DNA of 64,000 nucleotides from Clostridia bacterium. Its GTDB lineage: Bacteria > Bacillota > Clostridia > Oscillospirales > CAG-272. The stretch covers positions 1-64,000 of the forward strand of contig JAGAKG010000035.1 of the NCBI GenBank assembly GCA_017625755.1, in the 5' to 3' direction. This document shows positions 4,282 to 22,261 of this stretch, one piece after another. Position numbers and translations under genes: made by a program. Within the stretch, counting starts at the first letter, position 1. Every line of letters starts with the position of its first letter. Below the pieces are notes generated by a model, which ran no database searches, was not told where the DNA came from, and saw nothing but the letters and a program-made list of their open reading frames with translations.

Positions 4282-4458
4282 TTATTCATCATCTTTGGGC
4301 TTGCTTCTTTCAGCCAGCTTGTTTGTAATCGCGTTCATTCCGTATATTGAAAGAATTATAACTCCGATAACTATGAATATACAGAGCATACCCTCGCCCA
4401 TATCCTTCAGGCTGTCAAAAAAGCGAGCCTTTACTTCATCAGTGAAAAAATTACTCAT
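4282..4458 (-). CDS. Small OadG-like membrane subunit (58 aa)
   Basis: A 58-residue reading frame with AAGGAG six to seven bases before its ATG, 16 bases after the stop of the decarboxylase beta subunit. It has a short charged N-terminus, one membrane segment (about residues 23-41, GMLCIFIVIGVIILSIYGM) and a charged lysine-rich tail. That span resembles the OadG / gamma-chain pattern (GMGxVFxxLxLLxxxxxxM), and a gamma chain belongs in this position because it anchors the decarboxylase complex. Unlike most gamma chains it has a 22-residue segment before the membrane span and no long Pro/Ala-rich or histidine tail. Assignment rests on context plus a short pattern. Confidence 0.65.
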   Translation of the reverse strand: MSNFFTDEVKARFFDSLKDMGEGMLCIFIVIGVIILSIYGMNAITNKLAERSKPKDDE

Positions 4459-4474: not shown

Positions 4475-5590
4475 TTACGACGCAACCAAAGTAAGAATAA
4501 GTCCGCCCGCGATAACCGAAGCAATCTGTCCCGAAACATTGACGCCGATAGAGTGCATAAGCAGGAAGTTTTGCGGGTCTTCCTTAAGTCCCATCTTATG
4601 AACAACACGACCTGACATAGGGAACGCTGAAATACCCGCAGCGCCTATCATCGGGTTTATCTTTTCTTTCTGGAAAAGGTTGAGGAACTTTGCGAAAAGC
4701 ACACCGCCTGCGGTATCGAAGATAAACGCAAAGAGTCCGAGTGCGAGAATGAGAAGCGTCTGCCACTTGAGGAATTCGGTGGCTTCCATCTTTGTTGCTA
4801 TGGTAATTCCGAGGAATATAGTTATAAGGTTTGCGAGAACCTTCTGTGCGGTCTCCGAGAGGGAATTAAGCACTCCGCACTCTCTGATAAGGTTTCCAAA
4901 CATAAGGAATCCAACAAGAGATACCGATGCGGGAGCTACAAGACCTGCGATAACGGTAATTATGATAGGGAAAAGTATTCTCGTCGTTTTGGATATTTCC
5001 TTTCCCTTATAGGGCATACGGATAAGTCTTTCTTTCTTTGTGGTAAGTGCCTTGATAACAGGAGGCTGAATGATAGGAACAAGCGCCATATACGAGTACG
5101 CCGCCACCATTATAGCTCCGACATACTCAGAGTTCAACTGTTGCGCTACGACTATCGCAGTAGGTCCGTCAGCCGCACCGATTATACCGATAGATGCCGC
5201 ATCGCGAATGGGGAAGAAGAGAGAAGCCAGACAGTATGTCAGGAATATACCGAACTGCGCCGCCGCTCCGAATATCATAAGCTTTGGATTTGAAAGCACG
5301 GGGCCGAAGTCTATCATAGCTCCGATACCGATAAATAGAATGAGAGGGAACAGCTCATTAGCGATACCCGCGTTAAACAGAGTTGTCAGCGCCCCCTCTG
5401 CGCCGATAGCACCCGAGAGGGGAATGTTTACCATAATAGTTCCGAAGCCGAGGGGCAACAGAAGCGTAGGCTCCATATCCTTCTTTATCGCGAGATAAAT
5501 AAGCAATCCGCCGATAGCCCACATAACGAAATAACGCCAACCGCCGTCACTGAACAGATTTTCAACAATACCTTTGAAAATATCTACCAT
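4475..5590 (-). CDS. Sodium-translocating decarboxylase subunit beta
   Basis: A 371-residue polytopic membrane protein of the OadB/MmdB/GcdB family. These use decarboxylation of a carboxybiotin (from oxaloacetate, methylmalonyl-CoA or glutaryl-CoA) to pump Na+ out of the cell. Family motifs include GIGAMIDFGPVLSNP, IGIIGAADGPTAI (with the conserved Asp of the ion path) and NPMIGAAGISAFPMSGRV near the C-terminus. Length is usual. Only a small gamma-like gene follows; the carboxyltransferase alpha subunit and the biotin carrier must be elsewhere, so the substrate cannot be named. Promoter at 5624-5652. Confidence 0.93.
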   Translation of the reverse strand: MVDIFKGIVENLFSDGGWRYFVMWAIGGLLIYLAIKKDMEPTLLLPLGFGTIMVNIPLSGAIGAEGALTTLFNAGIANELFPLILFIGIGAMIDFGPVLSNPKLMIFGAAAQFGIFLTYCLASLFFPIRDAASIGIIGAADGPTAIVVAQQLNSEYVGAIMVAAYSYMALVPIIQPPVIKALTTKKERLIRMPYKGKEISKTTRILFPIIITVIAGLVAPASVSLVGFLMFGNLIRECGVLNSLSETAQKVLANLITIFLGITIATKMEATEFLKWQTLLILALGLFAFIFDTAGGVLFAKFLNLFQKEKINPMIGAAGISAFPMSGRVVHKMGLKEDPQNFLLMHSIGVNVSGQIASVIAGGLILTLVAS

Positions 5591-5844: not shown

Positions 5845-6495
5845 ATGGATCAAAAGAAAATCAGACCTATTGTTGGTATCGCGAGCATAGTTGCGGCAAT
5901 CCTCTTTGTCGTTTTGCTTATAATCGGTATCGTATATGACGGAGGTACCTTCTCGAAGATACTTCTTATAGCAATCTCCATCCTCGTGCTTGTGCTTGCT
6001 GCAGAGCTTGGATATTTGTTTTTTCTTTTCGGAGACACAAAGCCCAATTATTTCCTTTATAACACTCAGTCAAACAGAAATGTTTCGGTTCAGAAGCTTA
6101 CATTCCAGATGATAAATGTAAGAATGAACAGATATCTTGCGGCATACGCTCCCTCTGAGGGAAAGATATGGACTGACAGAGTATTTGATAACCCCTATCT
6201 TGAAATGGACGACGCTTTCAAGCCTCTCGTCGGATACAAGCTTTTGTTCGACCTTGCTGAGCGCGATTTTGACGCTGGCTGGAGATGCTTTGATCTCGCT
6301 TCCGACGATACCGTCAACTTTATCGCAGCTGCGATAGAGCTTAACGGAGAGACCGAAATGGCAAATACGCTCAGAACCTTAAAGGGAACTAAGCCCACAA
6401 ATCTCAAGCATGTAAGAGATTATCTCGTTGCCAAGAGAAACTATCTCCAGAACAAGATGTTTAAGTACACGGTTGAAAATATAGACCTTTTCTGA
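5845..6495 (+). CDS. Hypothetical membrane protein (two spans, soluble C-terminus)
   Basis: I do not recognise this 216-residue protein. It has two adjacent N-terminal membrane segments (about 10-30 and 37-59) and a mostly helical soluble part (about 65-216), which would face the cytoplasm if the loop between the spans is outside. No catalytic motif is apparent. AGGAG precedes the ATG. It is transcribed alone from a consensus promoter and closed by a strong terminator, so it is probably well expressed. Confidence 0.75.
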   Translation: MDQKKIRPIVGIASIVAAILFVVLLIIGIVYDGGTFSKILLIAISILVLVLAAELGYLFFLFGDTKPNYFLYNTQSNRNVSVQKLTFQMINVRMNRYLAAYAPSEGKIWTDRVFDNPYLEMDDAFKPLVGYKLLFDLAERDFDAGWRCFDLASDDTVNFIAAAIELNGETEMANTLRTLKGTKPTNLKHVRDYLVAKRNYLQNKMFKYTVENIDLF

Positions 6496-6513
6496 TTACT
6501 TTTATTAAATATA

Positions 6514-6558
6514 AACAATCACCGAGCATTATTTTTGGCACGGTGATTGTTTTTTTAT
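6514..6558 (+). terminator. Terminator after the 5845 gene
   Basis: The 11-bp stem AACAATCACCG/CGGTGATTGTT (6514-6524 with 6541-6551) is followed by six more T. Confidence 0.88.
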
Positions 6559-6560
6559 GC

Positions 6561-6589
6561 TTGAAATGTGAGATGTAATATGATATAAT
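6561..6589 (+). promoter_or_regulatory. Promoter of the kinase/PqqD/peptidase trio
   Basis: TTGAAA (6561-6566), a 17-base spacer ending in TGA, and perfect TATAAT (6584-6589), 48 bases before the first gene. Confidence 0.82.
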
Positions 6590-6636: not shown

Positions 6637-7350
6637 ATGCTTTATATAAAAATTGCCGATTTAAAAATTCAGATAGACAATAAATATAATTATGTGCGCG
6701 GTCTGTGCAGGGACTATATCATAGACGAATGTGAGGATTTCGACCTCAGTATCTCGGTGAGTGAAAAGGAGATAGACGACGAAATTGCTGTTGCCGAGGT
6801 AGCGGTTTCCCGCGGATACGCCGAAGGGGTTTGTATTTACAGAAATATCTGTTATCAGCTGCCCACAAAATTCAACTCCTATCTTCTGCATAGCGCGCTT
6901 ATTGAATACGAGGGCAAGGGATATGCTTTTGCGGCAAAAAGCGGTACGGGCAAATCCACACACATCTCGATTTGGCAAAAGGTCTTTGGAGACGGGGTGC
7001 GTATTATCAACGGCGACAAGCCCATAGTTCGATATATCGACGGCGATTTTATAGCATACGGAACTCCTTGGTGTGGTAAGGAAGGCTTTGCGGTGAACGA
7101 TTCGGTTCCGCTCAGAGCGCTCTGCTTTATAGAACGCTCCCCCACGAATTCTATTGAGCGTATTCCCGCGGCTGACGCGGTATTGAGAGTATTCCACCAG
7201 ATACTTACCCCAAGAGACGCGGCAACGGTCGACGCGCTTTTCCCGCTTCTCGACGAAACGCTCAAAAAGGTTCCATGCTATCTTTTGAAGTGTAATATGG
7301 ACGACGAAGCCGCAATCGTGGCTTATAACGGTATGAATAACGAACTCTAA
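6637..7350 (+). CDS. HPr-kinase-like protein of a peptide-maturation type locus
   Basis: A 237-residue protein with a P-loop AKSGTGKST (about residues 100-108) preceded by LLHSALIEYEGKGYAF, the arrangement of HprK / ATP-type PEPCK fold kinases found beside PqqD genes. A later NGDKPIVR (about 125-132) stands where HprK has its Asp pair. It is clearly distinct from the true HprK encoded at 21161-22090: the N-terminal half differs and the HprK signature is absent. Relatives in lasso-peptide clusters phosphorylate the precursor. Here it leads an operon with a PqqD-like protein (19 bases downstream) and an S24/S26 peptidase. AAGAGGA precedes the ATG. Its substrate is unknown. Confidence 0.75.
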   Translation: MLYIKIADLKIQIDNKYNYVRGLCRDYIIDECEDFDLSISVSEKEIDDEIAVAEVAVSRGYAEGVCIYRNICYQLPTKFNSYLLHSALIEYEGKGYAFAAKSGTGKSTHISIWQKVFGDGVRIINGDKPIVRYIDGDFIAYGTPWCGKEGFAVNDSVPLRALCFIERSPTNSIERIPAADAVLRVFHQILTPRDAATVDALFPLLDETLKKVPCYLLKCNMDDEAAIVAYNGMNNEL

Positions 7351-7369
7351 TGAAAGCTGAGGTAAAAAA

Positions 7370-7633
7370 ATGAAGATTAAATCAGGATTTGTTGTCAGAG
7401 AGGTTGCAGGACAGAGTATAGTTGTAGCTCTCGGCGAGGCTACCAAAACATTCAACGGTATGATAAGACTTAACGAAACAGGACGCATAATCTGGGATAT
7501 GCTGTCGGCAGGCAGCGAGAAGGCTGATATCGTAAAGCGTATCACAGAGGAATACGACATAGACGAGCAGACTGTGCAAGCCGATGTCGATGCGTTTATA
7601 AATACATTGCAAGGAGCAAATATTCTTGAATAA
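7370..7633 (+). CDS. PqqD family protein (RiPP recognition element type)
   Basis: An 87-residue protein that is one complete PqqD-like domain: an N-terminal beta-strand part (FVVREVAGQSIVVA), then FNGMIRLNETGRIIWDML and a winged-helix segment with ADIVKRITEEYDIDEQTVQADVDAFI. In known systems this domain binds the leader of a ribosomal peptide precursor and presents it to modifying enzymes. No radical-SAM enzyme, cyclase or precursor is encoded in the adjacent sequence. It lies between a kinase-like gene and a peptidase gene, with an 8-base overlap with the latter. Confidence 0.88.
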   Translation: MKIKSGFVVREVAGQSIVVALGEATKTFNGMIRLNETGRIIWDMLSAGSEKADIVKRITEEYDIDEQTVQADVDAFINTLQGANILE

Positions 7634-8108
7634 CGAATTTTATCTTGCGGACACGATAGACATAATAGAGGAGGTTTTGGCGTCGGACGGAGAATTTCGT
7701 ATGTACCCGAGAGGAACGAGCATGCTTCCTCTCATCGTGCAGGGAAAGGACTCTGTTGTGCTTCGCCGCTCCATAGATCCTCTTGTGAAAAATGATATCG
7801 CGTTTTATCGCCGCGATAACGGTCAGTTCGTTCTGCATAGAATAGTCAAGGTAAGCAAAAACGGAATATATACTATGTGCGGCGACAACCAAACAATTCT
7901 TGAACCCGGTATAAGACCAGACCAGATCATAGGGTATGTCTCCGCTATATACAAAGAGGACAAGCTGCTTAACACAAAATCCTTAAAGCACAGAGCATAT
8001 CTCTTTTTATGGGGACGGGTTTGGGCAAGAAATATCATCAGATTTCCAAGACGCTGTCTTGGTAAAATAAAGAGGATTTTTGTCAAAACATTCGGCAAAA
8101 AAGGTTGA
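7626..8108 (+). CDS. S24/S26 family peptidase (signal-peptidase-like)
   Basis: A 160-residue protein with the signal-peptidase fold: YPRGTSMLPLI (nucleophile Ser about residue 32), DSVVLRRS, LHRIVKV and MCGDN. At the second catalytic position it has His-Arg (about 71-72) where bacterial LepB has Lys-Arg, so it belongs to the Ser/His branch like SipW and the archaeal enzymes. There is no N-terminal membrane span; a hydrophobic, basic segment lies near residues 122-145. The start is TTG at 7626, supported by AAGGAG 9 bases upstream and by overlap with the PqqD gene. In context it may trim a peptide or leader; this is inference. Confidence 0.85.
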   Translation: MNNEFYLADTIDIIEEVLASDGEFRMYPRGTSMLPLIVQGKDSVVLRRSIDPLVKNDIAFYRRDNGQFVLHRIVKVSKNGIYTMCGDNQTILEPGIRPDQIIGYVSAIYKEDKLLNTKSLKHRAYLFLWGRVWARNIIRFPRRCLGKIKRIFVKTFGKKG

Positions 8109-8133
8109 CGAATCATCTTTGATATGGTATAAT
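8105..8133 (+). promoter_or_regulatory. Sigma-A promoter of the pyr operon
   Basis: TTGACG (8105-8110, overlapping the stop of the peptidase gene), a 17-base spacer and perfect TATAAT (8128-8133). The leader to the pyrC start is about 68 bases and shows no PyrR-type anti-antiterminator. Confidence 0.85.
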
Positions 8134-21160: not shown

Positions 21161-22090
21161 TTAAGATTCAAAACCTTCAAGCAAACGCCTGTTAAATTCC
21201 TCGGCGGTATTATAGCCCATCTTTTTCTGACGGTTATTCATTGCCGCTATCTCGAGAATTATCGCAAGATTTCGTCCTGGCTTAACGGGAATCGTGAGAG
21301 AGGGAATATCTATACCGAGAATATTCTCGTGCTCCTCGTTCAAACCGAATCTGTCATACATTTTGTTTTGATCCCACGGCTCAAGCTGTATAACGATATC
21401 TATTCGTTCAGTCTGCTTGACCGAGCCCATACCGAACAAGCGCCTTACATCAACAATGCCTATTCCGCGAAGCTCAATATAGTGCCTTATAAGCTCTGGG
21501 GCAGTACCTACGAGCGTCTTTGAAGAAACCTTCGTTATTTCAACCGCATCGTCAGCTATAAGGCGGTGTCCGCGCTTTACAAGCTCTATTGCAGTCTCGC
21601 TTTTTCCTATTCCGCTGTCGCCGAGAATAAGCATACCCTCACCGTAGACCTCAACGAGAACGCCAGAACGGGTTATGCGCTCTCCAAGACTCGTGTTGAG
21701 AGATGCGATAAGTGCCGCCATAAACGAGCTGGTTCTATCTGCGGTGCGAAGCAGGGGAACCTCATATTTCTGCGCCACGGATATTATAGCGTCGTAGATA
21801 GGTAAGCTACTGGTGATAACGACCGCTACGGGCTTCATACTGAGGAATGTATCTATTCTCAGCTCTCTTTCATCTTTAGACATTTTAGCGAGATACTGAT
21901 GCTCTGCCTTACCGATTATCTGAATCCGATGCGGCTCAAAAAGCTCGTTGAAGCCCGCAAGAGCAAGTCCCGGACGGCTGACCTCTGTACTCGATATCAT
22001 AATTTCGTCGGGCTTTTGCGGTAGATAAAGCTCCTCTAACTGAAACTCTGAAATAAGCTTACTGAGCGGTATACTGTATTTCGATTTCAT
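21161..22090 (-). CDS. hprK: HPr kinase/phosphorylase
   Basis: A 309-residue bifunctional enzyme that phosphorylates Ser46 of HPr and removes the phosphate, controlling carbon catabolite repression. Walker A GDSGIGKS is at about 157-164, then HRLIADDAVEI with the catalytic Asp pair, and the HprK signature ELRGIGIVDVRRLFG. In the stretch before the P-loop most family members read HGVLV; here it is SGVLV, so the usual His is Ser. I chose the ATG at 22090, which follows AAGGAGG; this gives the standard length. ptsH and the PTS genes are not in the window. Confidence 0.93.
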   Translation of the reverse strand: MKSKYSIPLSKLISEFQLEELYLPQKPDEIMISSTEVSRPGLALAGFNELFEPHRIQIIGKAEHQYLAKMSKDERELRIDTFLSMKPVAVVITSSLPIYDAIISVAQKYEVPLLRTADRTSSFMAALIASLNTSLGERITRSGVLVEVYGEGMLILGDSGIGKSETAIELVKRGHRLIADDAVEITKVSSKTLVGTAPELIRHYIELRGIGIVDVRRLFGMGSVKQTERIDIVIQLEPWDQNKMYDRFGLNEEHENILGIDIPSLTIPVKPGRNLAIILEIAAMNNRQKKMGYNTAEEFNRRLLEGFES

Positions 22091-22261
22091 AAAAAACCTC
22101 CTTATTGAGATATTTATTTGATTATAGCACATTTTCACATAAAATGGAAGAATCTTTTTGAAATATTTTTTAACTCTTTTGCGATAAGTCGATTTATTCA
22201 CAATACTGTAACAAAATAGGTGTATAATGTTTAGAATAATAATTGAACTTAGAGGTTTTTA

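Follow-up and report, generated by a model that had tools for sequence, protein, structure and literature searches.

A trio of adjoining genes in a Clostridia bacterium (Oscillospirales; CAG-272), encoding an HprK-like kinase, a discrete RRE of the PqqD type and a signal-peptidase-like serine protease, is likely to form the trans-acting core of a maturation pathway similar to that of the linear polyphosphorylated peptides (LPP RiPPs), with acidic peptides scattered over the genome behind large, mostly secreted-protein genes as its substrates. The conservation of the trio, the existence of the peptides and their motif, their co-occurrence with the kinase, their arrangement behind partner genes and the selection acting on them are established here. 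The window is the whole stretch of DNA analysed, the first 64,000 nucleotides of contig JAGAKG010000035.1 (assembly GCA_017625755.1).

LPPs are products of Bacilli (Popov et al., Nat Commun, 20 May 2026; PMC13381572). In the studied lpp cluster, that of Paenibacillus alginolyticus, the HprK-like kinase LppK polyphosphorylates Ser3 of the LPP core, the discrete RRE LppB binds the YxxP leader, and LppS, an archaeal-type SpI with the residues S29/H68/D93, removes the leader with the help of LppB; LppD (MsbA-like) and LppN (an NTP transferase) complete the LPP core (PMC13381572).

The kinase, PqqD and protease locus

Judged from its flanking signals, the trio is a single transcription unit of its own (Table 1). 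A terminator formed by a strong hairpin and a U-run lies ahead of it, downstream of ORF216, the trio has its own promoter, and the following pyr gene cluster has a separate one. The protease ORF has a TTG start and a ribosome-binding site (AAGGAG, 7612-7617), and overlaps the stop of the PqqD gene. The coordinates and the promoter and terminator analysis agree with the sequence-only reading, which had placed the three ORFs under one promoter. That reading had also distinguished the kinase from the true HprK, as the matches described below confirm, and had noted no adjacent precursor, cyclase, exporter or radical SAM gene; none of these, nor an NTP transferase, is seen among the immediate neighbours of the trio in the window. 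Upstream, ORF216 (5845-6495) encodes a two-TM protein and precedes the kinase in most genus members; an OadB-like decarboxylase sodium-pump subunit (4475-5590, minus strand) and an adjoining small OadG-like ORF (4282-4458) are also encoded there.

Table 1. Features at the trio locus and a kinase outside it; positions are those of the window
Feature	Position	Strand	Characteristics
Intrinsic terminator of the preceding gene ORF216 (predicted)	6513..6552	+	Fold -17.9 kcal/mol, z -5.8; isolates the trio
Sigma-70-type promoter of the trio, extended -10 (predicted)	6561..6589	+	TTGAAA-17-TATAAT, TG; 11/12 matches in consensus scan
HprK/PEPCK-superfamily kinase (LppK-like)	6637..7350	+	237 aa; P-loop AKSGTGKSTH; NGDKP and GTPWxGK motifs
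Discrete RRE / PqqD protein (LppB/B1-like)	7370..7633	+	87 aa; Pfam PqqD E=1e-18
Archaeal-type signal-peptidase-I-like serine protease (LppS-like)	7626..8108	+	160 aa; Ser32/His71/Asp87
Promoter of the following pyr gene cluster (predicted)	8105..8133	+	Consensus scan; separate from the trio
True HprK kinase/phosphorylase	21161..22201	-	Motif GDSGIGKSE; 13 kb off; outside the system, for comparison only

The kinase is a distant relative of ScmC and HprK in an NCBIfam search. Its ScmC match (E 1.4e-7) lies far below the cut-off, and no full HprK family match is obtained, only weak ScmC- and HprK-related ones. The profile of the kinase family gives weak matches to PEPCK structures, and individual members match ScmC, HprK_rel_A and hpr-ser. 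The P-loop residues G103, G105, K106 and T108 are invariant in 26 proteins, and the predicted ATP site of the trio kinase is thus supported at the level of sequence. The protease matches Pfam S24 weakly (E=0.0021), as it does archaeal signal peptidase I (E=1.7e-4), and its family profile matches SEC11A/SEC11C and bacterial SPase I, placing it near the SEC11-type signal peptidases; the catalytic residues S32, H71 and D87 are invariant among homologues and are equivalent to the three LppS residues given above.

The trio's PqqD protein is the only one in the window genome. As a single sequence, its best PDB match is LppB (9X8Z, E 1.2e-5), level with the lasso protein TbiB1, while the profile of the clostridial RRE family ranks TbiB1 first, with TbiB1 and TfuB1 above LppB. 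The residues with which LppB holds the YxxP motif (N33/Y60/D70/F74) map to N35/Y62/D72/F76 of the window protein. These are kept in 46-50 of 53 homologues (87-94%), position 62 being Tyr in 46 and Phe in 7.

The kinase is present in 25 of 59 relatives; PqqD accompanies it in 23 of them and is absent from all 34 relatives that lack the kinase. The two exceptions are G023, at a contig end, and G034, which kept the kinase and ORF216 only, without PqqD or the protease being found (L047). At about 20 of the 25 kinase loci all three genes are clustered, although their order and their neighbours vary, and the pyr neighbourhood is confined to the genus. The association is far beyond chance; the sequence-only reading had proposed to check whether the three genes keep together in Clostridia, and they do. 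Among GTDB genome contigs, the kinase is encoded on at least 587 stretches. PqqD lies nearby in 52 of the best 80 of these loci and the peptidase in 47, and genes for an ABC exporter, an NTP transferase (NTP_transf_5) or a radical SAM protein accompany subsets of the 80. Cultured carriers include Blautia schinkii DSM 10518 (L181) and Faecalibacterium gallinarum JCM 17207 (L148). At about 20 of the best 80 (within L127-L206), some of them at contig ends, neither PqqD nor the peptidase is close by, a hint that the kinase has other uses as well.

A radical SAM branch is formed by loci with a SPASM-type gene beside PqqD, kinase and ABC genes (L051:8402-13223 and L050:7380-11838, G048; also at L139, L140, L148, L168, L197 and L200). 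L051 carries a Cys-bearing YxxP peptide, MKKTYEKPMVYFEELSFDTTIADMCS..., and this combination suggests other chemistry on the same leader type. L184:10001-15000, from a MAG labelled Spirochaetales, contains the kinase, PqqD, peptidase, ABC and NTP transferase genes with two YxxP peptides, whereas LPPs have been reported as limited to Bacillota. An ABC exporter gene also adjoins the trio in some other relatives. For the window genome a single exporter orthologue was sought and rejected, as its 28 ABC matches, at best 28% identical, allow no clear assignment. Its only NTP_transf_5 gene (PF14907, the LppN family; G000:C54:17291-18016, in L254) sits inside a polysaccharide/capsule locus, like lpp clusters in Bacilli.

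Candidate precursor peptides and their partner genes

Neither in the window nor at about 70 of 80 further loci does a precursor like those described below occur within 6 kb of the trio. In two distant relatives a small ORF, encoding MKRHYETPEIEIQEFVVEDICTTSAPYEEGNI at L048 and MKELYEEPVIEIVHFQPEDIITNDSVPGGDDIETGGDEW at L045, is positioned a short way ahead of the trio, and at both loci a secreted-protein gene, the peptide gene and the trio all adjoin; peptides adjoin the trio at L181, L184 and L204 as well. A pattern search of the trio's own genome reveals at least 8 unlinked peptide ORFs of 44-50 aa with ribosome-binding sites, spread over seven contigs, none of which is the trio's. The possibility raised by the sequence-only reading, that a precursor is encoded elsewhere, is supported by 8 candidates with a matching RRE motif that co-occur with the trio, whereas their plurality and their place behind secreted-protein genes had not been foreseen. 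Its other suggestion, a minimal signalling module without a precursor, is not supported.

The peptides of the own genome share the leader MKKxYxxPExE...D[VI][IL]TxS, which contains the RRE-binding YxxP motif; the pattern of the clostridial peptides as a family reads YxxPE[IAL]E...[FL]...D[VI][IL]TxS. When 61 peptides are aligned on the Tyr, Y and P are each conserved at 100%, D+14 at 93%, T+17 at 82% and S+19 at 89%. The tail that follows the motif is acidic (22% D+E, 3% K+R), almost devoid of Cys and has a median length of about 21 residues, and the cores are very variable in sequence. None of the peptides tested matched an NCBIfam model. Three ortholog pairs between the window genome and G024 give a dN/dS of about 0.19, a sign of purifying selection, and the peptides are thus translated and selected. 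Relatives carry up to about 26 peptides per genome. Three near-identical paralogues in G004 (L223, L224 and L225; MKKYxTPEIEMIVLQSADCITFNSGDY...) are found with partner genes that differ in their C-termini, as if the peptides had spread or been converted independently of their partners.

The presence of the peptides follows that of the kinase. The order was sampled evenly, and 297 genomes, all at least 90% complete and mostly MAGs with heuristic gene calls, were searched with the peptide profile: 70 genomes have both, 30 the kinase only, 8 the peptide only and 189 neither (p=1.5e-34; p=4e-31 once the genomes used to build the profile are left out). Counted by genus, the numbers are 45, 13, 3 and 84 (p=5e-22), and this count is the safer one, as shared ancestry inflates the p-values. 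With this profile, no peptide is found in 30 of the 100 kinase-positive genomes. Among relatives that are about 90% complete or more, peptides occur in 15 of 17 kinase-positive and 1 of 17 kinase-negative genomes; the seven genus members with peptides and without kinase and PqqD are all less than 90% complete.

The surroundings of 50 peptide sites, from the own genome and from samples of other genomes, reveal a nearly constant position. The profile was built from leaders alone, so that no partner type was selected for. Each of the 8 peptides of the own genome starts 12-62 nt downstream of a larger gene on the same strand, and over the 50 sites the gap to this upstream gene has a median of 17 nt and is at most 40 nt in 44. 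Among the 46 upstream products that are full-length and reach 300 aa or more, 42 have a signal-peptide-like N-terminus. If no more than one additional TM segment is allowed, the count is 41 of 46 partners, compared with 52 of 126 other genes in the same stretches (p=1e-8, with a heuristic predictor). A few peptides follow non-secreted genes or sit at gaps of 160-200 nt; the one exception in the own genome (1 of 8, L089) lies 62 nt behind a GH32-like gene without a signal peptide.

The main domains of the partners are unrelated and include S8 subtilase, LRR, cohesin, beta-helix and EEP nuclease, among others. One of three recurring C-terminal modules ends 38 of the 50 partners and the other 12 have none of them; no Pfam model matched the three modules. 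A single domain common to all partners was considered and rejected, since the modules are not demonstrably homologous by sequence and cover only those 38.

Proposed maturation and competing readings

We infer each biochemical step, and the function, from these comparisons. The PqqD protein would bind the YxxPx[ILA] leader, as the matching motifs and binding residues indicate, and the HprK-like kinase would then phosphorylate the conserved Ser at Y+19 in TxS, by analogy with LppK and the paeninodin kinases. With PqqD presenting the leader, the protease would cut close to T(Y+17)/S(Y+19), as LppS suggests: after T, as in LPP; after S, where the residues at -3 and -1 are small and would suit a signal peptidase; or in front of S, so that Thr is penultimate, as it is in lasso leaders. 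An ABC pump, whose gene is unlinked here, would finally export the acidic linear core of about 20-30 residues, which the lone LppN-family nucleotidyltransferase from the polysaccharide locus may decorate further. The earlier proposal that the trio recognises, phosphorylates and cleaves a peptide gains comparative support, LPP maturation having the same three activities.

The large gene and the peptide gene that follows it appear to form a two-gene unit. Because it lies directly behind a gene for a surface or secreted protein, we hypothesise that its product probably acts with the partner protein at the cell surface. The fuller version, in which the one trio matures a whole set of phosphopeptides and each of these is co-translated with its own secreted partner and acts on it (for example in attachment, folding or surface protection), is offered tentatively. 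If it holds, the peptide would serve exported clostridial proteins in general as an accessory and would not be a natural product. Independently of this version, machinery of the LPP kind is present in about one third of the genomes sampled from one clostridial order, where searches within 5 kb miss many precursors, and the constant place behind secreted-protein genes is a first testable clue to the role of the peptides. A large class of small ORFs of gut Clostridia without a family model (MKKxYxxPE...TxS) also gains a likely identity.

It is conceivable, if on balance doubtful, that the same pathway yields independent secreted natural products or signals, the adjacency to partners then reflecting co-regulation or a shared insertion site. 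The unrelated partner families, the 12 of 50 partners without a recurring module and the parallel of scattered prochlorosin precursors are in keeping with this, and LPPs themselves have been reported without a known biological role (PMC13381572). The tight, nearly invariant spacing argues for a closer tie to the partner, however, as do cores that are short, acidic, nearly Cys-free and very variable.

Two further readings concern the substrate and the type of system. That the trio acts on something else, such as a protein, and that the YxxP peptides are part of some other system travelling with it, is unlikely: the only PqqD of the genome sits in the trio, the leaders bear exactly the motif bound by YxxP-type RREs, kinase and PqqD co-occur almost strictly, and peptides adjoin the trio at the loci listed above. 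Such a substrate would nevertheless agree with the 30 kinase-positive genomes without detected peptides and with the roughly 20 of the best 80 kinase loci at which PqqD and peptidase are not nearby, as the kinase may have other uses. A split or degenerate lasso system, with PqqD as B1, the dispersed peptides as lasso precursors and the peptidase in place of B2, is very improbable. Although a YxxPx[LI] leader with a discrete RRE is common to lasso B1 systems, TbiB1 is the best match of the RRE profile and paeninodin clusters have HprK-like kinases, the cores carry no fixed Gly1 or ring Asp/Glu at 7-9, and no cyclase stands next to the trio, whose neighbours in the window are ORF216 and the pyr genes. 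Lasso membership was rejected because a search of the genome gave no B2 (PF13471) above the cut-off, with a sub-threshold match only.

Comparison with known systems

The reading of the trio as an LPP-like core rests on several shared features. An HprK-like kinase, a discrete RRE with YxxP-type pocket residues and an SpI-like Ser/His/Asp protease are encoded together, the YxxP leader is followed by T...S, the locus has no cyclase, and an MsbA-like exporter and an NTP transferase are adjacent in some clostridial relatives. There are also differences. LPP hosts are Bacilli and the trio's hosts Clostridia; LPP clusters hold 1-3 precursors, which were sought within 5 kb (PMC13381572), whereas the clostridial genomes have 1-26, scattered and paired with secreted-protein genes. 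The LPP leader YxxPxVLxHQxIxFETxxS ends in FETxxS and the clostridial one in D[VI][IL]TxS. In the window no precursor lies in the cluster or within 5 kb, the precursors being on other contigs, and the exporter and LppN genes of the genome are unlinked to the trio. The system is not filed in the published LPP family because an in-cluster precursor and the LPP leader motif are lacking, neither an exporter nor a transferase gene adjoins the trio in the window, and the RRE is at least as close to lasso TbiB1 as to LppB. A literature search for such dispersed precursors, or for this trio in Ruminococcaceae, gave nothing beyond the LPP paper.

Paeninodin-like lasso systems (PadeC/ThcoK kinases, B1 RRE) also combine an HprK-like kinase acting on RiPP precursors with a discrete RRE and an xxxP leader motif. 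The trio system differs in having Y and not W in the motif and an SpI-like protease, with no B2 protease or macrolactam cyclase seen. SynChlorMet (ScmC kinase, ScmD PqqD; TIGR04249/TIGR04248) pairs a weak relative of the trio kinase with a PqqD protein; the trio locus lacks its radical SAM genes, and the precursors differ.

For prochlorosins, one trans-acting enzyme set serves many precursors scattered in the genome, with lanthipeptide chemistry; these precursors are not known to be paired with secreted-protein genes. The clostridial trio resembles them in this one-to-many arrangement and differs in its unrelated enzymes. In conclusion, the clostridial system appears to be LPP-like and trans-acting, with dispersed precursors coupled to surface-protein genes, an arrangement that is new and in which both the chemistry and the function are those suggested by comparison.
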